A stretch of DNA of 64,000 nt from Stigmatella erecta (GTDB taxonomy: Bacteria; Myxococcota; Myxococcia; Myxococcales; Myxococcaceae). How positions within the stretch are numbered: position 1 is the stretch's first letter; every line of letters starts with the position of its first letter. The notes under the pieces were generated by a model that searched no databases, was not told the origin of the DNA, and was given only the letters and a program-made list of their open reading frames with translations. This document shows positions 2,713 through 12,802 of this stretch, piece by piece. The stretch is taken from contig NZ_FOIJ01000009.1 of NCBI RefSeq assembly GCF_900111745.1, positions 248,001-312,000 of the forward strand, given 5' to 3'. Position numbers and translations under genes: made by a program.

Positions 2713-5700
2713 TCAGGAGCCCGTCTGAGCAGCGGGCTTCGCCGGTGCGGACCGGGCGGCGAGGCGAAGCAGTTCGTCGTCGGAGAGCTGCTCGGTGGCG
2801 AGCGCGGAGGGCTCGGTCTTGACGCGCTCCACCTTGCCGCTGCGCACGGCGTGGAACTCGCCCGTGCCCTGGTTGGGAATCTTGGAGGTGAAGTCCACCT
2901 TGGCCTCGCTGAGCATGGGCTTCATCTTCTCCAGGGACGTGCGCTCCTTCACGCGGCCGATGAACCAGGAGCGGATGTTGTCGCGGCACTTGTAGTCGAA
3001 GTCGCCCGGGCTCTGGGTGGCCAGCATCAGTCCCAGGCCCGCCGAGCGCGCCCGCTTGATGAGGTTCTCCATGGGCTGCTTGGTGGAGGGCTGGCGCATG
3101 GCGGGCAGGTACATGTCCGCCTCGTCGAACATGAGGACTGCCTGGAGCGTGGGGCAGGGGTTGCGGCTGAGCCAGCGCGTCACGTCGATGAGGAGCTGGG
3201 AGACCCAGAACAGGACGTTGTTGTTGTCCCCGAGGAACTTGGTGCTGAGGATGCTCAGGCGGGTCTTGCCCGGAATCGCGTGCGCGCCCCGGCCCAGCAA
3301 GAGGTCCATGTCGAGCTTCTCGGCGTCGCGGCCCAGCAGCAACTGGGCGTCCAGGTTGAGCCGGTCCAGGTCGTCGGCCACCTTTCCGAACAGCTTCGTG
3401 TCCAGCCGGCCCGCGGCGTTGACCAGGCGCGGATCCATGTCCCCGATGAAGCGGACGAGCCGGGGCAGGGTGACGTCCTCGCTGGACAGCTGGATGAACT
3501 GGTCGATGGCCTGGGTGAGCAGGGTTCGGCAGGACTTGTCCCGGGCACTGGTGCGGTAGTCGAGCATGCCGGCCAGCGCCTCGGCGGCATGGCGGGTGCC
3601 CTGCTGGCGGTCAAACTCGGGAAGGGCGTTCAGCCCATCGGGCACGATGGGAATGGCCAGCGGGCGGCCGTTGGGGTGTCCCGGGGTGAAGAGGGCCACG
3701 TCCAGCCGCTCCCGGAGCTGGTCCCGGCGCTCCCGGCGGCGGGCGTCTTCGATGGGACGGTTCCAGAAGTCCTCGGAGGCGTAGCCCGCGAGGTCTCCCT
3801 TCCGGTCCACGAGGATGGCGGGGATGCCCTGGAGCAGCAGTTGCTCAATCAGGTTGAGGGCGAGAGTCGTCTTCCCACTGCCGGGCCCTCCGAGGAACGC
3901 CGCATGCTGGGTCAGCTCGTTGGGGTTGAGCAGGACGGGCTCTCGCAGCAGGCTGTCCTGTTCGCCGATGCGGACGGAGACGGAGGAAGTGCGCTGGGAC
4001 GGCGTCTTGGTTGTCTCCTGAGGCTTGCCCTGCGAGAGGGTGCTTTGGGTTGGGGGGTCGGTCTTCGTCTGGAAGAGTGATTGCTGTGCGGCGGTAACGC
4101 CCTGCTTGTCAGGAGGCCGCTGTGAATCCTTGACGGTCCGAGAAGCATCGGTGTTTTTCCCGGGAGCTGTCTTGGTCTGGGCGTTGTCCAGGGCCAGGAT
4201 GTCCCGCACGGGCTTGAGCTGGGTGATGGGCTTGGCCGAGCGCAGCCAGGCGGCGAAGTCGGGACGCGACTCGTGGTGCTTGCGGAATTCCCTCAAGGAG
4301 ACGATGGCCCGGCCGTCGCTGTCTTCCAGCACCGCCCGGCGGCCTCCCCTGCCGATGAGCTTGCCGAGGCTCACCGCGGCGGTCGCCCGGGGGTTGCTTG
4401 GGTACTCGCTGGTCCGGATGACCACGGCGGTGCGGCCTTTGGCCTCCTTGCGCGCCTGGTCGATCTGGTTGGCGAGCCCTCCCCCCCGGGTGCTGCGGTT
4501 GCACAGCACCAGGTGCAGTTTCTCGTCCCCAGGAGAGACATCCACCTGGATGGCCTCCTCGACGCGCCGGACCTCGAAACGATGTCCCGTGTCCACTTCG
4601 TCCGCGCTGGCCCGCAGGGCCCAGACCAGCAGCTCGGCGAGTTCGGGATCCTCCTCGGGCGGTGGCGTAGAGTTCGTGGAACGGAAGTCATTCCAGAGCT
4701 GGTCCAACTCCAGCGTCTTCTGCCCCTGATCGTGGGTAGAAAGCTGCTTCTGGGGAGACGGCAATCCCAGGGGGAACTGGCTGGGCAGGGCGCCCTCGCG
4801 GCTGGCCTGTTCACGCCACCTCCGGCATGTGTCGAGCACCTCGCGGGTGCTCAGCCCGGCGAGTTTCTCGAAGCCCTCGTGGGGGAAGGGGTAGGTGGGC
4901 TCTGCGGGATCGAACGGCGCATCCTCCACCGTATAGAGGTGCTCCAGGCGGCGCTCGGTGATGAGCCGGGCCTCCTCTGCGGTGCGGTGGTTCTCCAGCT
5001 TGAGGGTGTCCGGGTCCCGCTCGATGCGGTCCAGCAGGGACTGGGTCAGCTGGCCCCGGAGGCCCGTCCAGAAGGTGTGCAGGCAGCTGATGACGATGAC
5101 CGAGGAGGGCGCGCGCTCCGCGAAGTCACACAGCATGTGCATGGCCCGGCGGAACGCCTGCGCGTTCGCTGCCTCGATGTCGAAGCCCTCGAGCTGGTCC
5201 ACGCACAGCACCAGCGAGTGGCCGAGCACGGCGGCGAGCTGGCCCAGGTGCTCCACCATCTCCTGCGGGTGGTTGTCGTGGATGCGCGGCACCAGGTCGC
5301 CCAGCACCTTGCGGTCGTTGCCGGACAGGTCCTCACAGCGCAGGTACTTGAGCACGCGGCTGCGGATGCGCGTGTCCTCCCGCTGGAGGAAGAGCAGGGC
5401 GCGCAGCAGGTCCAGGTCCAGCTTCTTGAAGCGCTCCTGCTTCTGCAGATCGTCGGCGGCGGTCTCCACCAGGTGGATGATTTCGTCCGCGTCCTGGTCC
5501 GGGTCGGCGAGCAGGGCCGCCACCTTGCCGCACTGGGCGAGCAGCAGGTCCGACAGCTTCCGCAGGCCGGACTTGGCCTCGGTGGACTCGTGGTAGGGCT
5601 GGTCCAGTGAGTCAATGAGGTTGGAGAGGACGTAGCGGCCGTAGTTGCTCGTGGACGTCGTCATCTGCATGTAGCCCACGAAGCCCAGGGAGCGCTCGTG

Positions 5701-5967
5701 GGCGAGGGTCCGGAACGCCCGGAGCAGGTGCGTCTTGCCGCAGCCCGAGTCTCCCAGCAGCAGCAGGATGCGCCCCGAGTCCAGGCCAGGCGGCGTGGTG
5801 GCGCGCAGGAGCATGCGCTCGAAGGTGGCCCGGGCCTCCTGGTGCACCGTCTCGACGTCGAAGGGGTCCTCCCGCCAGATTTCATGGCGGTGCTGGATGG
5901 AGTGGAAGACCTCGGTACGATCGGACAAAAAAGAGGCAAGACGCAGATCGTTCTGCTGCATGGGCAC
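2713..5967 (-). CDS. Double ATPase: N-terminal AAA-like and C-terminal HerA/DUF87-type
   Basis: A 1084-residue cytoplasmic protein. The N-terminal ATPase has Walker A GDSGCGKT (about 72-79) and a Walker B-like LVLCVDQLEG (about 250). The middle (about 430-640) has no known motif and ends in a Gln/Thr/Lys-rich linker. The C-terminal module has Walker A GGPGSGKT (about 690), ILVDRKGDL, Walker B MFDEADMYL (about 945) and MLATQSPGDFD, the pattern of HerA/FtsK-like DNA-pumping ATPases (DUF87). A GGGGGAG ribosome site precedes ATG 5967. It is the last gene of an operon with a DUF559 nuclease and a winged-helix-like protein, 29 bp after the latter. A DNA-translocating motor partnered with a nuclease is inferred. 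I know no named system with this exact composition. Confidence 0.82.
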   Translation of the reverse strand: MPMQQNDLRLASFLSDRTEVFHSIQHRHEIWREDPFDVETVHQEARATFERMLLRATTPPGLDSGRILLLLGDSGCGKTHLLRAFRTLAHERSLGFVGYMQMTTSTSNYGRYVLSNLIDSLDQPYHESTEAKSGLRKLSDLLLAQCGKVAALLADPDQDADEIIHLVETAADDLQKQERFKKLDLDLLRALLFLQREDTRIRSRVLKYLRCEDLSGNDRKVLGDLVPRIHDNHPQEMVEHLGQLAAVLGHSLVLCVDQLEGFDIEAANAQAFRRAMHMLCDFAERAPSSVIVISCLHTFWTGLRGQLTQSLLDRIERDPDTLKLENHRTAEEARLITERRLEHLYTVEDAPFDPAEPTYPFPHEGFEKLAGLSTREVLDTCRRWREQASREGALPSQFPLGLPSPQKQLSTHDQGQKTLELDQLWNDFRSTNSTPPPEEDPELAELLVWALRASADEVDTGHRFEVRRVEEAIQVDVSPGDEKLHLVLCNRSTRGGGLANQIDQARKEAKGRTAVVIRTSEYPSNPRATAAVSLGKLIGRGGRRAVLEDSDGRAIVSLREFRKHHESRPDFAAWLRSAKPITQLKPVRDILALDNAQTKTAPGKNTDASRTVKDSQRPPDKQGVTAAQQSLFQTKTDPPTQSTLSQGKPQETTKTPSQRTSSVSVRIGEQDSLLREPVLLNPNELTQHAAFLGGPGSGKTTLALNLIEQLLLQGIPAILVDRKGDLAGYASEDFWNRPIEDARRRERRDQLRERLDVALFTPGHPNGRPLAIPIVPDGLNALPEFDRQQGTRHAAEALAGMLDYRTSARDKSCRTLLTQAIDQFIQLSSEDVTLPRLVRFIGDMDPRLVNAAGRLDTKLFGKVADDLDRLNLDAQLLLGRDAEKLDMDLLLGRGAHAIPGKTRLSILSTKFLGDNNNVLFWVSQLLIDVTRWLSRNPCPTLQAVLMFDEADMYLPAMRQPSTKQPMENLIKRARSAGLGLMLATQSPGDFDYKCRDNIRSWFIGRVKERTSLEKMKPMLSEAKVDFTSKIPNQGTGEFHAVRSGKVERVKTEPSALATEQLSDDELLRLAARSAPAKPAAQTGS

Positions 5968-5996
5968 TCCCCCAGTTGCCGGACGGTGTGAACGCT

Positions 5997-7004
5997 CTAC
6001 AGGGCGATGAAATGAAAGGTGGCGCCGAGGTAGCGGGTCTCCGAGGCGGCCACGTCCGCGGGATCCATCAGCTCGACCATGTCGGCGCGGCTCAGCGACA
6101 GCAGCCGCTTCTGGTTGGCCTCGATCAGCCGGTTCTTGAAGGCCTGCTCATCCAGCCCCGGGCCCTTCATGGCGTGCCAGATGTGCGAGATGAAGACGCG
6201 GTCATCCCCGAAGCGGCCGCTCGTCGCGGTGCGGGCCGTGTGCAGCACCCGCTCGGCGAACGAGGACAGGGCTTCCTCGCCGGCCGGGGGCACGGGGGTG
6301 GCAAGCTCCGCGGGGGGTTGGGGCGCTGACTCGGAGGCGGGAATGAGCCAGGACTGCAAGGCAGCCAGACGGAGGCTCTCCGCGCCCGTGCGCCGCGCGC
6401 CCACGCTCCGGGCGGCGAGCTGCTCCAGGGCCTGCGCGGGGCTCACCTCGCGGGTGGCCTGGAGCACCTGGCCCAGCAGGAAGGATTGCACGGCGGACAG
6501 GGTGAAGGGTTTGTCCGAGTCCACCCCCAGCTGCTTCCAGCACAGCGCATCCCGGACCTGGGCCAGGCTTCGCGTGCCCGGCTCCCCGAGGCCCGACTGC
6601 TTTTGCACGAGGACGGCCCTCAGGCCATCGGCGGTGCCCAGCCGGCTCACATGGCTGCCGGAGGGCGGAAGCCCCAGGGACTTCGCCGTCAGGTACTTGA
6701 GCCGCAGTTGCTTCCAGGTGAGGCCCTTGGGGGCCCGCTCCACCCCGAGGGCCTCCACGGCGCGCTGGCGGCCCGCGTCCGTGAGGTGCAAGCCCTTGCG
6801 CGGCGTCTGGTGCAAGAGGCCGCCCGCTTCCAGCGTGGCCAGGGCCCCATCGAGCTGGGTGTTCCACTCGCCCGTGCTCCAGCGGTGCTCGACGAAGGAC
6901 TTCAGCGCCCGGGACACGTCTGTGCGTGAGCCTTTTCCCTCCGGGCGTGTCAGCAGCCACAGCAGCGCCACTTCCGCTACGCGAGAGAGCTCAGTCCGCG
7001 CCAT
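5997..7004 (-). CDS. Putative winged-helix adaptor protein in the nuclease-ATPase operon
   Basis: A 335-residue protein of unrecognised family. The N-terminal 80 residues look like a winged helix, with the wing segment LEAGGLLHQTPRKGLHLTDAG. A variable Ala/Pro-rich linker follows (about 225-250). The conserved-looking C-terminus also resembles a winged helix: FISHIWHAM, then LLSLSRADMVELMDPADV and a final SETRYLGATFHFIAL. The start at 7004 is set by GGGGAGG six bases upstream; ATG 7010 would abut that site. It overlaps the upstream nuclease gene by 14 bp, so translation is probably coupled. A DNA-binding or bridging role between the nuclease and the ATPase is inference. Confidence 0.75.
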   Translation of the reverse strand: MARTELSRVAEVALLWLLTRPEGKGSRTDVSRALKSFVEHRWSTGEWNTQLDGALATLEAGGLLHQTPRKGLHLTDAGRQRAVEALGVERAPKGLTWKQLRLKYLTAKSLGLPPSGSHVSRLGTADGLRAVLVQKQSGLGEPGTRSLAQVRDALCWKQLGVDSDKPFTLSAVQSFLLGQVLQATREVSPAQALEQLAARSVGARRTGAESLRLAALQSWLIPASESAPQPPAELATPVPPAGEEALSSFAERVLHTARTATSGRFGDDRVFISHIWHAMKGPGLDEQAFKNRLIEANQKRLLSLSRADMVELMDPADVAASETRYLGATFHFIAL

Positions 7005-8271
7005 GTGCATCCTCCCCATCTGCTGGCACCCTCCCCACCGCGTCTTGCCGCAGGGAGACGACTTCCAGGACAGTGTCGCGGATTTCCTCGAGCCGCGCCA
7101 CCACATCATCGGCGAGGAAGCGCAGCACCCAGTAGCCATGCCGTTGCAAGGCCAGGTCCTTGCGCCGGTCGCGCCGGTAGGCCTCGGGCGTCTGGAAATG
7201 GTAGTAGCCATCGATTTCGATGGCCAATCGCAACCGTCGGCAGAGCAGGTCTACCTCGACAGGCCTGTCATGGAGGAGAAACCCGGTACGTTGGTTGAGT
7301 TCAAACAACCCCCGGGTGGCGGGGAGGGATTCGAGCAGCGCGCTCAGGAAGCGCTCCGCGGTGCTGCGGGCCCGGTCCTCCGCCGAGCGCTGAACCGTGG
7401 CGGCTTCCCGCTCCCGGGCCGCGCCGCCGTAAAGCGACAGCACCTCGTCCGGGGCACCGTCCGCCGCCAGCTGGGCGAGCGCGCCCTTCAGGGCTTCCGT
7501 GTCCTGGACCCCGAGTGCCTCCACGCGCCGCTTCACCGCCTCGGAGGAAACCGCTGGGAGCGTCAACCGCCCTTCCCGGACCAGCGCGCGGCCCTGGCTT
7601 TCCTCTCCGTGCAGAAAGACGTCCACCGCTTCTGCTTCCACGGAGAGGGCAGCGGCCAGCGTGGGCACGGTGTCACACATCCGGGCCGCGGTCCGGGCGG
7701 CCTGGGCCAGCCACGCCGCCCCTGTTCCCGCGAGCAGGAGCGCTGGGGCCTCTCCGAGGGGAACGAGGGCGTGCAGGGCCGCGAACGCGCGCAGGGGGTT
7801 CTGCTCGCAGGCATCGAGCAGGGCCTCCCAGGGCTCCTGTGGGCTGGAGGCGGCGGGTTGAAGCCAACACCGGCACGCGGCGGCGGCATCCGGGTGGGGG
7901 ACGGCCGGAAAGAGGTCCTGGAGCAGCAGGCCGCGCTCGTGCGGCGTTTTGCCTCGAAGGTCCGAGGCCAGCTCGCCCCGCCGCAGTCCTCCCGCGGCGC
8001 CGAGCACCTCCGCCGCATCGGCTTCGAGGTTCCGGTGCTGGGCCAGGAACGCCATCCAGTCGCGCACGGCCCCGGCTTCGCGCGAGGCCCGCGAGACACA
8101 CAGCCCCAGGCCGCGTGCCTCCAGCCAGCGGTGCCAGAGGGAGAGGGCGGCTCCGGGGGGGCCGGCGAGCACGGTGAGGGTGGGGATGGCCTGCTCGCGC
8201 CGGTGGTGGTGCCGGTCCAGCGCGGAGAAGGCCGCGGTATCGCTCGGAGGGGCGGAAGGGGCGGGGGGCAC
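6991..8271 (-). CDS. DUF559 (Vsr-like PD-(D/E)XK) endonuclease protein
   Basis: A 426-residue protein, first gene of a three-gene operon. The last 90 residues are a DUF559 / very-short-patch-repair-like nuclease: VEVDLL (D341), LAIEIDGYYH (E352, D354, H358), RRDRRKDLALQRHGYWVLRF (K371) and a trailing acidic helix. Family knowledge says DUF559 proteins share the Vsr/restriction-endonuclease fold. The N-terminal 300 residues are not recognised. Near residue 35 is AGPPGAALS, which resembles an eroded Walker A. The GTG start at 8271 has GGAG five bases before it. The gene lies 73 bp downstream of opgH on the same strand, with no clear terminator between, so it may have its own promoter or read-through. 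Confidence 0.8.
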   Translation of the reverse strand: MPPAPSAPPSDTAAFSALDRHHHRREQAIPTLTVLAGPPGAALSLWHRWLEARGLGLCVSRASREAGAVRDWMAFLAQHRNLEADAAEVLGAAGGLRRGELASDLRGKTPHERGLLLQDLFPAVPHPDAAAACRCWLQPAASSPQEPWEALLDACEQNPLRAFAALHALVPLGEAPALLLAGTGAAWLAQAARTAARMCDTVPTLAAALSVEAEAVDVFLHGEESQGRALVREGRLTLPAVSSEAVKRRVEALGVQDTEALKGALAQLAADGAPDEVLSLYGGAAREREAATVQRSAEDRARSTAERFLSALLESLPATRGLFELNQRTGFLLHDRPVEVDLLCRRLRLAIEIDGYYHFQTPEAYRRDRRKDLALQRHGYWVLRFLADDVVARLEEIRDTVLEVVSLRQDAVGRVPADGEDAHGAD

Positions 8272-8344
8272 GGGCTCCAGCGTCCTTGAAACGGACGCGG
8301 CGCTTCAAGGAGCCCCTCCCCCTACCGGTGTTAAGCAGTGCGCA

Positions 8345-10372
8345 TCAGGACGTCTGGCTCATGAACCGGAGGCGGGCCTCCGCCAGCGTGCCCGGGTCCA
8401 GCAGCACCATCGACTTCTCCTGGGTGGAGAGCGCGTCCTGCTGCCCCGAGAGCAGCTTGCGCCGCGCGGTGGCCAGCTCGATGGAGGCAATGGAGGGGCC
8501 CGGCTGCTCCTCCAGCAGCGCCAGGTGCAGCGCGTGGGCGCGGGGGTCCGTGAGGACGCGCTTCAGCCCGTCGTCCACGGTCTCCAGCTTCTGCTCGGAC
8601 AGCGCCTGCGCCCGGACCAGCAGCGGGTGCTTCACGCGCTCCTCGGGGATGAGGAACAGGCCCATCTTCGCCGCCCAGGTGCCCAGCGACGCCCGGGCGG
8701 TCCACACCGACATCGGGATGGAGAGCAGCAGGCCCGCCACCACCGGGGACAGCCACAGCAGCAAGTCCCGGGACAGGGCGGCCGACACCCCGGCCAGCAC
8801 TGCGCCGAACACCGTGTGGCCCCAGTGCCGCCGGGCCGCTTCGGACCAGGGCAGGTCCGCGTCATCGCGCTGCTGGCTCGACCAGTTCACCCGGTAGCCC
8901 AGCACGGTGCCGAAGACGAAGTGGGACTGGAAGAGCATCATCACCGGTGCGAGCAGCATGGAGATGGCGGTCTCCAGCACCACGCTCAGCGCCACGCGAA
9001 TGCGGCCGCCCATGCTTCGGGAGACCTCGCTGTCCAGGAGCGTCAGGAAGAGGCCGAACAGCTTGGGCACCAGCAGCATGCCCAGCGAGAGGAACATCAT
9101 CCGCCGCGCGCCCTCCACATCGAACGTCGGCCACACCGGGAACAGGGTCCGCTCGTCCGTGAAGTACACGGGCTCCACGAAGCGGTCCTGCAGCGCGGCG
9201 CCCAGCCCCGTCAGCAGGAAGATGAGCCACAGGGGCGAGGCCACGTAGGACATCACCCCCATGAGGAAGTGGCCGCGGCTCAAGGGGTGAAGCCCCCCGG
9301 CCATCACCAGGCTCAGGTGCTGGAGGTTGCCCTGGCACCAGCGCCGGTCGCGCTGGGCATAGGCCAGCAAGTGCGGCGGGGACTGCTCGTAGCTGCCCCC
9401 AAGGTCTGACAGCAGCCACACCGTATAGCCCGCCCGGCGCATCAGCGCCGCCTCCACGAAGTCGTGGCTGAGGATGTGCCCTCCGAAGGGCTGCTTGCCG
9501 GGCAGCACGGGCAGGCCGCAGTGCTCGATGAAGGCGGACACGCGGATGATGGCGTTGTGGCCCCAGTAGTTGGACTCGCCGAGCTGCCACGCCGCCGTGC
9601 CCGCGCCCACCACGGGCCCGTACACCTGGCCTGCGAACTGCTGCAGGCGGGCAAAGAGCGTCATCTTCCCCACGCAGCGGGGAGGCGCCTGGAGGATGCC
9701 CGCGCGCGGGTTGAGCTCCATCAGCCGCGCGAGCGTCACCAGCGTGTCGCCCGTCATGAGGCTGTCGGCGTCCAGCACCACCATGAAGTCGTAGTGGCGG
9801 CCCCAGCGCTCGCAGAAGTCCGAGAGGTTGCCGGCCTTCTTGCCGGTGTTGTCCGAGCGGCGCCGGTAGAAGATGCGCCCCTGGCCCCCCACGCGGCGGC
9901 ACAGGTCCGCCCACGCCAGCTCCTCGGCCACCCAGGCCTCGGCGCGCGTGGAGTCGCTCAGCACATAGAAGTCAAAGGCCTCCAGGTGCCCCGTGGCGGC
10001 CAGCGACTCGTAGGTGGCCTGCACGTTGGCGAAGACCGAGGCGGGGTCTTCGTTGTGGATGGGCATCACCACCGTGGTGCGCCGGGTGAGCGGCGCCTTC
10101 TGCTCCTCGGCCGTCGGCTGGCGCAAGCCGGGCACCCGGCCCCCCACGAGCGTCTGGAGGAACCCCGCGACGGCCGTCCAGAAGGACAGGCAGATCCACG
10201 CGAAGCACAGGCTGAAGAGCCCCAGCAGCAGCCACTCGGTCTCCGTGGTTCCCTTGACGCTCAGCAGCCGGTGCATCTCCCACGCTCCGAGGAGCGTGGA
10301 GAGGGCCGCCAGCCCCAGAACGAAGAAGCGGCGGAGTCCGGTGGAGGGAGGGGAGAAGGAGTGGGCTTGCAT
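8345..10372 (-). CDS. opgH: Glucans biosynthesis glucosyltransferase H
   Basis: A 675-residue inner-membrane glycosyltransferase that builds and exports the linear beta-glucan backbone of osmoregulated periplasmic glucans. Two N-terminal membrane helices (about 13-33 and 45-75) are followed by a family-2 glycosyltransferase domain with VVMPIHNEDP (about 100), VVLDADS, SHDFVEAALMRRAGY and the QRDRRWCQGN motif (QxxRW type). Several C-terminal membrane helices follow. It is shorter than the E. coli protein of about 850 residues, mainly at the N-terminus. It is third in the operon opgG, unknown gene, opgH, starting 9 bp after the middle gene. Confidence 0.93.
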   Translation of the reverse strand: MQAHSFSPPSTGLRRFFVLGLAALSTLLGAWEMHRLLSVKGTTETEWLLLGLFSLCFAWICLSFWTAVAGFLQTLVGGRVPGLRQPTAEEQKAPLTRRTTVVMPIHNEDPASVFANVQATYESLAATGHLEAFDFYVLSDSTRAEAWVAEELAWADLCRRVGGQGRIFYRRRSDNTGKKAGNLSDFCERWGRHYDFMVVLDADSLMTGDTLVTLARLMELNPRAGILQAPPRCVGKMTLFARLQQFAGQVYGPVVGAGTAAWQLGESNYWGHNAIIRVSAFIEHCGLPVLPGKQPFGGHILSHDFVEAALMRRAGYTVWLLSDLGGSYEQSPPHLLAYAQRDRRWCQGNLQHLSLVMAGGLHPLSRGHFLMGVMSYVASPLWLIFLLTGLGAALQDRFVEPVYFTDERTLFPVWPTFDVEGARRMMFLSLGMLLVPKLFGLFLTLLDSEVSRSMGGRIRVALSVVLETAISMLLAPVMMLFQSHFVFGTVLGYRVNWSSQQRDDADLPWSEAARRHWGHTVFGAVLAGVSAALSRDLLLWLSPVVAGLLLSIPMSVWTARASLGTWAAKMGLFLIPEERVKHPLLVRAQALSEQKLETVDDGLKRVLTDPRAHALHLALLEEQPGPSIASIELATARRKLLSGQQDALSTQEKSMVLLDPGTLAEARLRFMSQTS

Positions 10373-10381
10373 GCGTGGGTC

Positions 10382-10897
10382 TCAGGCCCCCTCGATGGAG
10401 GCGTCCGCGGTTTCCGCGCGCCACCAGCGGCGCAGCAGCCCCGCCAGGGGGTTGAGCACAAGCTGCTGCTCGGGCATCACGGAGGGAACTGCCTTGGGCG
10501 CCGGGACGGGCATCGCGGCGCGCAGGGCCGCGGCAATGGGCTGGGGCAGCGCCGAGGGCTCGGTGTGCAGCAAGGCCGCGCCGTGCTGGGCCGACTCGCT
10601 CAGCACGAAGGCCGCGCGGCCGCGGGACAGCAGCGTCTCGCCCGCGTTCTGGTGCCCGAGCACCTGGAGCAGCCACGCCTCCATGCGGGAGCGGGCCAGG
10701 GCGAGCGCCGCCTGCGGCTCGGCCATGTGGCCACCGGGCACGGACAGCACCCAGCCGGTGAGCTGCGCCAGGTCCGCCTCGGAGGTGAACCCGAACGTGC
10801 GGAAGAAGGAGTCGAGGGCCACGCGCGTCTCCCGGCGGACCGGGGCGCTCAGCGCGGCGGAGTTCAGCGTCTTCACGGTGTCCACAAGTAGCTCCAT
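10382..10897 (-). CDS. Unknown protein between opgG and opgH
   Basis: A 171-residue, Ala/Leu-rich, probably helical protein with no signal peptide, membrane helix or catalytic motif. Its start overlaps the opgG stop by 25 bp and its stop lies 9 bp before opgH, so all three are one operon and probably translationally coupled. No product of this kind is part of the E. coli opgGH operon as I know it. A lineage-specific factor for glucan synthesis or its regulation is the natural inference. I do not recognise the family. Confidence 0.75.
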   Translation of the reverse strand: MELLVDTVKTLNSAALSAPVRRETRVALDSFFRTFGFTSEADLAQLTGWVLSVPGGHMAEPQAALALARSRMEAWLLQVLGHQNAGETLLSRGRAAFVLSESAQHGAALLHTEPSALPQPIAAALRAAMPVPAPKAVPSVMPEQQLVLNPLAGLLRRWWRAETADASIEGA

Positions 10898-12432
10898 GTC
10901 TCGGTGAGGGTCTCTGAACCGGTCTTCAGGAATCCGCGCAGCTCGATGGGCGCGGAAGAGTCGTCAGGCATCAGCTCGAAGGTGGCGCGCCAGCCTCCGG
11001 TGACGGTGTTGCGCTGGGCGATGGGGTGGAGCACCTGCCCGCGCGAGGCGGTGATGACGGGCTCCGCGGGGGCATCCCCAGCCGCTCCGCCGCCCGAGAA
11101 GTCGATGACGAAGCGCCGGGCCTTGGGCGTGGAGCCCGCGGCGATGCGCGTCGAGAGCACCGTGGCGCCCGGTGGGGCCTGCGGTGGCTGGAAGCCCCAG
11201 GTGAGCCGGTAGGCGAAGCGCCGCTCGGTGCCGGGGGTGAGCGGCTGCTCGGGCACCCACGCCGCCACGATGTTGTCGTGGATCTCCTCGCGGGTGGGAA
11301 TCTCCACGAGCTGGACGGCGCCCTTGCCCCAGTCGCCCACGGGCTCCACCCAGACGCTGGGGCGCAGCTCGTAGCGGGCCTCCAGGTCTTCATAGTTGGT
11401 AAAGGACTGGTCGCGTTGCAACAACCCGAAGGCCCGGGGGCTCTCCGCCTGGAAGCTCGCCACGTTGAGCCGCGCGGGGTTCTGGAGCGGCCGCCAAAGC
11501 TGCTCGCCGTTCTTCATCGAGATGAAGAGGCCGTCGGAGTCGTGCACCTCGGGCCGGAAGTCGTCGTAGGTGCCCCGGTTGTTCTCGCCGAACAGGTACA
11601 TGCTGGTGAGCGGAGCAATCCCCAGCTGCTTCACCGGCTTGCGGGCGAACAGGGTGGCTTCCACCTCCATCACCGTGTTCTTCCCGGGGATGATGACGAA
11701 GCGGTAGGCGCCCGTGACGCTCGGGCTGTCCAGCAGCGCGTGCACCACGGCGCGGTCCGACTTGGCCTCGGGCTTCTCCAGCCAGAACTCGCGGAACGCG
11801 GGGAACTCCTCGCCGCTCGGCAGGGCGGTATCAATCGCCAGGCCGCGCGCCGACAGGCCGTAAACATTGCCGCGCCCCAGGGAGCGGAAGTAGCTGGCGC
11901 CCAGGAAGACGGCCACCTCGTCGAAGTGCTCCGGACGGTTGATGGGGTGGTTGAGGCGCAGCCCCGCGAAGCCGTCCGCCTTGGCCAGCGGGCCCGCCTT
12001 CACCAGCGGGCCGTAGCTGAACAACTCCGGGGAGAACGGCACGTCCTCCACCTGCTTGCCGCGCACCACGTGCACCGCGACGGGCTCCTTGTAATAGAAG
12101 CCGGGGTGGAAGAACTGCGCCTGGAAGGGCAGGCCCTCCTTGCGCCACAGCGACTGGTCCGGACGGAACCGGATGTCCCGGTACTCGTCATAGGAGAGCT
12201 GCTCGTAGGAGGCGGGGAGGTTGGAGGCGGGGACCTTGTAGCCCTGGCCCGCCAGCGCGCGCGCCTTCTCCCGCACCAGCTCCGGGCTGAAGGCCGTCTT
12301 GGAGGCCTGCGCGGAAGCCTTCGCCGAGGCCCCCTTGGAGGAAGGCTTCACCTGGGCACCCGCCACCCCCGCCACCACCACACCGAGCACGCACGCCGTG
12401 CGAACTCCCCACCTTGAGCGCTTCCTCGACAC
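10873..12432 (-). CDS. opgG: Glucan biosynthesis protein G (periplasmic)
   Basis: A 519-residue periplasmic protein of the OpgG/OpgD family, needed for osmoregulated periplasmic glucan synthesis, probably by modifying the backbone released by OpgH. It has an N-terminal signal peptide (basic start, then ACVLGVVVAGVAGAQ). The MdoG domain carries typical segments such as YDEYRDIRF near 75, FYYKEPVAVHVV, GASYFRSLG and the SMYLFGENN region. GTG 12432 is chosen because AGGAGG lies about five bases before it and the upstream in-frame sequence is not signal-like. First gene of the opgG-unknown-opgH operon. Confidence 0.92.
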   Translation of the reverse strand: MSRKRSRWGVRTACVLGVVVAGVAGAQVKPSSKGASAKASAQASKTAFSPELVREKARALAGQGYKVPASNLPASYEQLSYDEYRDIRFRPDQSLWRKEGLPFQAQFFHPGFYYKEPVAVHVVRGKQVEDVPFSPELFSYGPLVKAGPLAKADGFAGLRLNHPINRPEHFDEVAVFLGASYFRSLGRGNVYGLSARGLAIDTALPSGEEFPAFREFWLEKPEAKSDRAVVHALLDSPSVTGAYRFVIIPGKNTVMEVEATLFARKPVKQLGIAPLTSMYLFGENNRGTYDDFRPEVHDSDGLFISMKNGEQLWRPLQNPARLNVASFQAESPRAFGLLQRDQSFTNYEDLEARYELRPSVWVEPVGDWGKGAVQLVEIPTREEIHDNIVAAWVPEQPLTPGTERRFAYRLTWGFQPPQAPPGATVLSTRIAAGSTPKARRFVIDFSGGGAAGDAPAEPVITASRGQVLHPIAQRNTVTGGWRATFELMPDDSSAPIELRGFLKTGSETLTETWSYLWTP

Positions 12433-12802
12433 CACTTCCTCCTGAAAGATGTCCGCTGAGCCGGATCGGTACGGGCTGCCAGTCCCCATCCGAGGCCACC
12501 GTCCCCGGTTCAGGGGGCAATGACGCAGCGAGTCCTAGCAACTGGCGTGCCATAAGCTGTGACGCCGTGCGTTGTCTGCAAGCTGCTCATCCGTTCAGCC
12601 CTCTGCACGAGGGAAGGCCGTTGGAATGCCAAGGAGTTGGCACCCGGCGGGGGCAAAGGCTGAAAAGACTTCAGCCCGGGGGCGGGCACGGTTGGGGAGG
12701 GGAGGAACACCGCGCGCTCCGGGCTGTCCCATTCCTCCACAGGTTCCAGTGTAGGGGCGCGTCCGGCCGTGACGGCCTCGGCCCCTTGTGGGAGAAGGCC
12801 CC
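12433..12802. other. Divergent intergenic region, opgG and MnmC-like gene
   Basis: About 370 bases between two divergent genes. It should hold the promoters of both directions. I see no convincing open reading frame, strong hairpin or recognisable operator. Confidence 0.5.

Follow-up and report, generated by a model that had tools for sequence, protein, structure and literature searches.

The window analysed here is a 64,000-nucleotide stretch of DNA from Stigmatella erecta. At positions 2713–8271, three open reading frames, all on the minus strand, are confirmed with the boundaries that the first-pass annotation had assigned to them. The genes and features of this locus, hereafter the cassette, are the following.

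6991–8271, minus strand: gene 1, nuclease, 426 aa, an ORF with a C-terminal DUF559 domain
5997–7010, minus strand: gene 2, DNA-binding-like protein, about 337 aa, with an N-terminal winged helix at residues 1–95
2713–5967, minus strand: gene 3, ATPase, 1084 aa, with two P-loop modules
7057–7365, minus strand: DUF559 domain of gene 1, residues 303–405 (Pfam E 4.9e-10; PDB profile matches)
5008–5811, minus strand: AAA/STAND-like module of gene 3, approximately residues 53–320 (GDSGCGKT, VDQ; AAA_22/AAA_16)
4138–4650, minus strand: middle alpha/beta region of gene 3, approximately residues 440–610 (from the alignment; without a family match)
2758–3978, minus strand: HerA-like motor module of gene 3, approximately residues 664–1070 (GPGSGKT, FDEAD, ATQ)
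8279–8309, minus strand: promoter-like element, CTTGAAG, 17 bp, GGACGCT, ending 7 bp before the GTG of gene 1

The end of gene 1 overlaps gene 2 by 14–20 bp, and a gap of 29 bp separates gene 2 from gene 3; the longest open frame of gene 2 extends to 7211, beyond the gene at 5997–7010. The nuclease, winged-helix, and ATPase genes are one operon, and the original observation that a nuclease gene and a DNA-motor ATPase gene stand together in a single operon is thereby upheld. The recurrence of this gene order in 63 loci, the dN/dS values of 0.13–0.57 across the cassette genes, which indicate purifying selection, and the invariant catalytic residues place the arrangement far beyond chance. The base composition of the cassette is host-like, in agreement with the codon use noticed at the outset, with a GC3 of 0.83–0.91 compared with 0.75–0.77 in two genes of the island at 52–62 kb.

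The three gene products

The product of gene 1 had been described as a Vsr-like nuclease with 300 unrecognized N-terminal residues, and this description holds. Pfam detects DUF559 at residues 340–405 (E 5e-10), in a domain taken as approximately residues 303–405, and residues 1–300 match no family in Pfam, NCBIfam, or PADLOC. Compared as a profile with the PDB, the nuclease matches 3hrl, an endonuclease-like protein (E 2.9e-9), and 3r3p, a mobile intron protein (E 9e-4), which we take to place it in the Vsr/EDxHD group. Residues E306, D341, E352, D354, H358, D368, D372, and R384 are identical in 65/65 aligned sequences, including the homologues from Methylobacterium, Nonomuraea, and Tsukamurella, and the active-site set of the Vsr/EDxHD group (E, D, ExD, H, D) is complete in every one of these 65. 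Structure prediction of the nuclease from a three-sequence alignment gave a pLDDT of 41. A kinship of its N-terminus with the AAA module of gene 3 was considered and rejected, as the profile aligns only a degenerate P-loop-like stretch, LAGPPGAALSLW, without significance. A second copy of the nuclease gene, broken and covering residues 3–222 only, lies in a genome of genus g19 (G108, contig C87, 40821–41479).

The middle protein, encoded by gene 2, matches no family in Pfam, NCBIfam, or PADLOC, and its comparison with the ATPase revealed no relation. Of the two winged-helix-like ends first ascribed to it, the N-terminal one stands: AlphaFold2, run on three sequences, predicts a confident winged helix at residues 1–95 (pLDDT about 85) and little beyond, and fold and profile searches find a resemblance to PadR/DtxR-like winged helices with marginal scores. 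At the C-terminal end, no fold was obtained from these predictions. The C-terminal part carries a motif, LSRADMVELMDPADVAASE, followed by GATFHF, which is conserved in myxobacteria and partly recognizable in distant homologues.

Gene 3 does encode two P-loop modules, each with its Walker A and Walker B motifs, which are conserved among the aligned homologues, and the TQ motif of the motor is intact. The label "double HerA-type" is nevertheless to be abandoned, because the first module is AAA/STAND-like (AAA_22, E 9e-12, and AAA_16, E 1e-9, in Pfam at residues 53–272, with VDQ as Walker B) and only the second is HerA-like. From residue 676 onward, Pfam reports DUF87 and HerA_C (E 1e-6 each), and the profile of this second module matches the solved HerA chains 8wiv (E 4e-14), 8xau (E 3e-11), and 4d2i (E 2e-10), with 8ziq also among the closest solved HerA proteins. 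The region between the modules (approximately residues 440–610) is recognizable across phyla; no family model matches residues 440–640, and no HAS-barrel appears among the 25 of 49 Pfam matches to the ATPase that were listed.

Related ATPases occur in other settings as well. In a distant member of the Myxococcota (L119, 6424–10179), the ATPase bears an N-terminal extension of approximately 200 residues that is TerB-like by eye and matches nothing in Pfam, and no nuclease gene adjoins it. Stand-alone HerA/Mad8-like motor relatives lie on two viral contigs of approximately 200 kb (L076, 7956–9629; L077, 7866–9227). In addition, another ATPase domain in the genome of the window itself (G000, contig C8, 296000–296935), within a frame of approximately 1031 aa, matches the PADLOC model mad8 at E 1.7e-39, more strongly than does the ATPase of the cassette, and frames like it are present throughout the family.

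Distribution, setting, and history

The cassette is present in 61 of 63 genomes from seven genera of the window's family (g1, 5/7; g3, which includes Archangium lansinium and A. violaceum, 6/6; g5, 2/2; g6, 16/16; g7, 4/4; g8, 1/1; g19, 27/27) and in none of the 33 genomes from the family's other genera; in the genus of the window itself, two complete genomes lack it. The sporadic distribution anticipated for a defence system is thus replaced by a nearly universal one in these seven genera, whereas PglZ, a standard defence marker, is sporadic in the family (6/96 genomes). A phylum-wide survey with the middle protein as query found most of the phylum Myxococcota to be without the cassette. Outside the family, the three-gene locus occurs in two genomes, G139 and G160 (L118, L122), and G160, together with G159, also has winged-helix and ATPase pairs without a recognized nuclease.

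Linkage of the genes is tight. A nuclease match adjoins the middle gene in 61/61 cassette-bearing genomes of the family, and the order nuclease, winged-helix protein, ATPase is found in the 61 fetched family loci and in the two distant loci of the Myxococcota. Plasmid records hold only three relatives of the ATPase, all in the same three-gene order, namely those of Methylobacterium aquaticum, Nonomuraea gerenzanensis (whose 11.9-Mb record is labelled a plasmid), and Tsukamurella tyrosinosolvens, which keep this order at 22–24% identity; the full range of identities to the window is 19–24%. The constant order that had been predicted is therefore borne out, and together with the overlap or tight spacing of the genes it holds in Myxococcota, Actinomycetota, and one alphaproteobacterium. 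No relatives of the ATPase were found in annotated phages. In T. tyrosinosolvens, the whole cassette (L075, 6244–11212) sits between rpsQ and rplN, beside a VapBC pair.

Loss or absence of the nuclease is the exception, as 61 of the 64 family loci examined retain it and its active site is invariant. The loci L048, L049, L052, L119, L120, and L121 have the winged-helix and ATPase genes but no nuclease gene. Three of these are second, type-B copies in genus g7 (L048, 5750–10104; L049; L052), which have intact P-loops and a divergent trypsin-like protease gene in the place of the nuclease gene.

Within a genus the cassette occupies one or a few sites, and between genera these sites differ. Its flanking genes are metabolic or housekeeping genes (anthranilate synthase, glutathione synthetase, OpgGH, FAD enzymes), and not the defence-island neighbours that had been expected; a defence-island setting was rejected, since the PADLOC kinase and AAA matches in 3–4 of 80 neighbours belong to generic families. 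In the window, OpgG/OpgH-like glucan synthesis genes are found immediately upstream and share the orientation of the cassette (8345–12489), with an unrecognized 171-aa gene in between. The OpgH gene is absent from three genomes of the window's genus, and the flanking OpgH is also missing in the two genomes of this genus that are without the cassette.

In the ATPase tree, two paralogous types, A and B, are separated, and genera cluster within each type, except that second, type-B copies of g1 and g7 nest among other genera. Because these copies join other genera in the tree, the sequences suggest that the cassette has been transferred horizontally among myxobacteria. Most fruiting myxobacteria inherit the cassette as a stable component of their genomes.

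The promoter-like element follows the same division. In type-A loci, it consists of CTTG, about 17–20 bp, and GGACGCT, with the start codon about 7 bp further on, and it is retained in nearly all of 15 loci although the upstream genes vary by genus. Type-B loci have their own version, CTTG followed by GCAGGCTT. With the GTG 7 bp away, the message could be leaderless. An inverted repeat in the window, TCCTTGAA...TTCAAGGA (8281–8312), overlaps the element and is also present in near relatives; it is possibly an operator.

Possible function and rival explanations

We regard it as an even call that the cassette encodes a long-resident translocase–nuclease complex acting on foreign or aberrant double-stranded DNA. 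In such a complex, the HerA-like module, presumably hexameric, would form a ring motor pulling double-stranded DNA, the winged-helix protein would be the adaptor linking the complex to DNA, and the N-terminal AAA/STAND-like module would serve as a switch or loader under nucleotide control. The DUF559 nuclease would then cut DNA delivered by the motor or DNA on which the motor stalls, and the preferred substrate would be phage DNA, plasmid DNA, or broken ends. This reading is favoured because the gene order is constant across phyla, because the active-site residues and both P-loops are conserved, and because the genes are under purifying selection and the promoter-like element travels with them. 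It is also favoured because the HerA module is nearest to solved HerA motors and, in DUF4297-HerA, assembly of the complex activates both the motor and its partner nuclease on double-stranded DNA (PMC11291478). Moreover, the two paralogous types and the nested type-B copies of g1 and g7 fit horizontal exchange.

A defence role is possible on the basis of these sequences. We infer defence as the selected function from the pairing of a motor with a nuclease. A resident function accounts for the distribution and setting no less well: the nearly universal presence, the housekeeping sites fixed within genera, the few plasmid copies, and the lack of phage copies all argue against defence. Autonomously replicating plasmids are rare in myxobacteria, with pMF1 long the sole known example (PMC3235114). 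A bolder proposal, which we put forward only tentatively, is that the cassette is an undescribed DNA interference system of three components, present in several phyla, which in fruiting myxobacteria has turned into a core barrier against foreign DNA, inherited vertically, and which may be part of the reason for this rarity of plasmids.

The same distribution would also suit genome maintenance, with the cassette as a lineage-specific counterpart of archaeal HerA–NurA, its task being to process DNA ends or collapsed forks in the large myxobacterial chromosomes. Presence in 61/63 genomes of seven genera, at a site fixed within the genus and among housekeeping flanks, points in this direction, as do the clustering of genera in the ATPase tree and the match of the motor to archaeal HerA (4d2i, E 2e-10). 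However, the 33 other genomes of the family, most of the phylum, and two complete genomes from the genus to which the window belongs do without the cassette, its chromosomal site differs between genera, and it occurs in two paralogous types, so that we consider maintenance conceivable but on balance doubtful. A role independent of the nuclease is made possible by the loci that have none, and the winged-helix protein and ATPase might be a nucleotide-dependent DNA-binding machine in their own right, regulatory or chromosome-organizing, with the nuclease as an optional addition. Nuclease-less pairs with intact P-loops are found in three g7 genomes and in family f17, one of whose ATPases has a long N-terminal extension, and dN/dS is 0.2 and 0.4 for one such g7 pair. 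Yet the nuclease is retained with an invariant active site in 61 of 64 family loci, and the same g7 genomes also have a full type-A cassette, the nuclease of which could act for the two copies alike; this explanation therefore appears improbable. A motor for DNA transfer or packaging, of the VirD4/TrwB or terminase kind, is very unlikely. The motor does match TrwB_AAD_bind and CedB weakly, as well as a PHROG named terminase large subunit, and has the stand-alone relatives on viral contigs mentioned above, but its profile is closer to HerA than to TrwB, and the cassette has no relaxase, pilus, membrane, or structural genes.

If the translocase–nuclease reading is true, the cassette would represent a new HerA–nuclease architecture, in which a motor fused to an AAA/STAND-like switch is paired with a winged-helix adaptor and a Vsr-like cutter. 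This architecture would be conserved between Actinomycetota and Myxococcota and would be an instance of such a machine belonging to the core genome instead of occurring sporadically. One could then ask whether a resident DNA-scanning nuclease is the reason that plasmids are so scarce in myxobacteria, or that these bacteria tolerate genomes of very large size.

Comparison with known systems

The initial impression that no named system has this composition is sustained: PADLOC (2023), NCBIfam (2026), Pfam, PHROGs, and the papers searched give no system name for the cassette, although later catalogues may name it, and no paper in the literature searched joins DUF87 with DUF559 or Myxococcus xanthus with DUF559. 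The PADLOC model mad8 of the methylation-associated defence system (MADS) matches the motor (E 7.5e-26), but MADS is an eight-gene set, and the cassette has no methylase or other mad gene, mad3 matching only at E 0.005 on the P-loop. Membership in MADS was rejected, as mad8 is unspecific, matching 14/14 named control genomes and 96/96 genomes of the family. The AAA module distantly resembles BrxC/BrxD of BREX (E 3e-4, in one ATPase homologue), but PglZ, BrxX/methylase, and other BREX genes are lacking from the cassette. Wadjet/MksBEFG combines an SMC-type ATPase with the JetD/MksG nuclease, whereas the cassette has an AAA and HerA ATPase with a DUF559 nuclease. With the Vsr/EDxHD nucleases (DUF559, 3hrl; 3r3p), gene 1 shares the nuclease domain and its acidic/His motif; unlike them, it carries as many as 300 N-terminal residues that have no known relative and sits in an operon with a motor gene.

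Archaeal HerA–NurA likewise joins a HerA-type motor to a nuclease, but the cassette is bacterial, contains no NurA, uses another nuclease family, and has an extra winged-helix gene and AAA module. The anti-phage systems DUF4297-HerA and SIR2-HerA (Nezha) also place a HerA-type ring motor beside a partner-enzyme gene, and the cassette ATPase has the intact Walker A, Walker B, and TQ motifs of such a motor. The cassette differs from both in having three genes rather than two, in a partner that is a Vsr-like DUF559 nuclease with no DUF4297 or SIR2 match, in a motor fused behind an AAA/STAND-like module, and in being nearly universal in its clade. Overall, while belonging to none of the systems tested, the cassette appears from its sequence to act like the HerA–nuclease systems.
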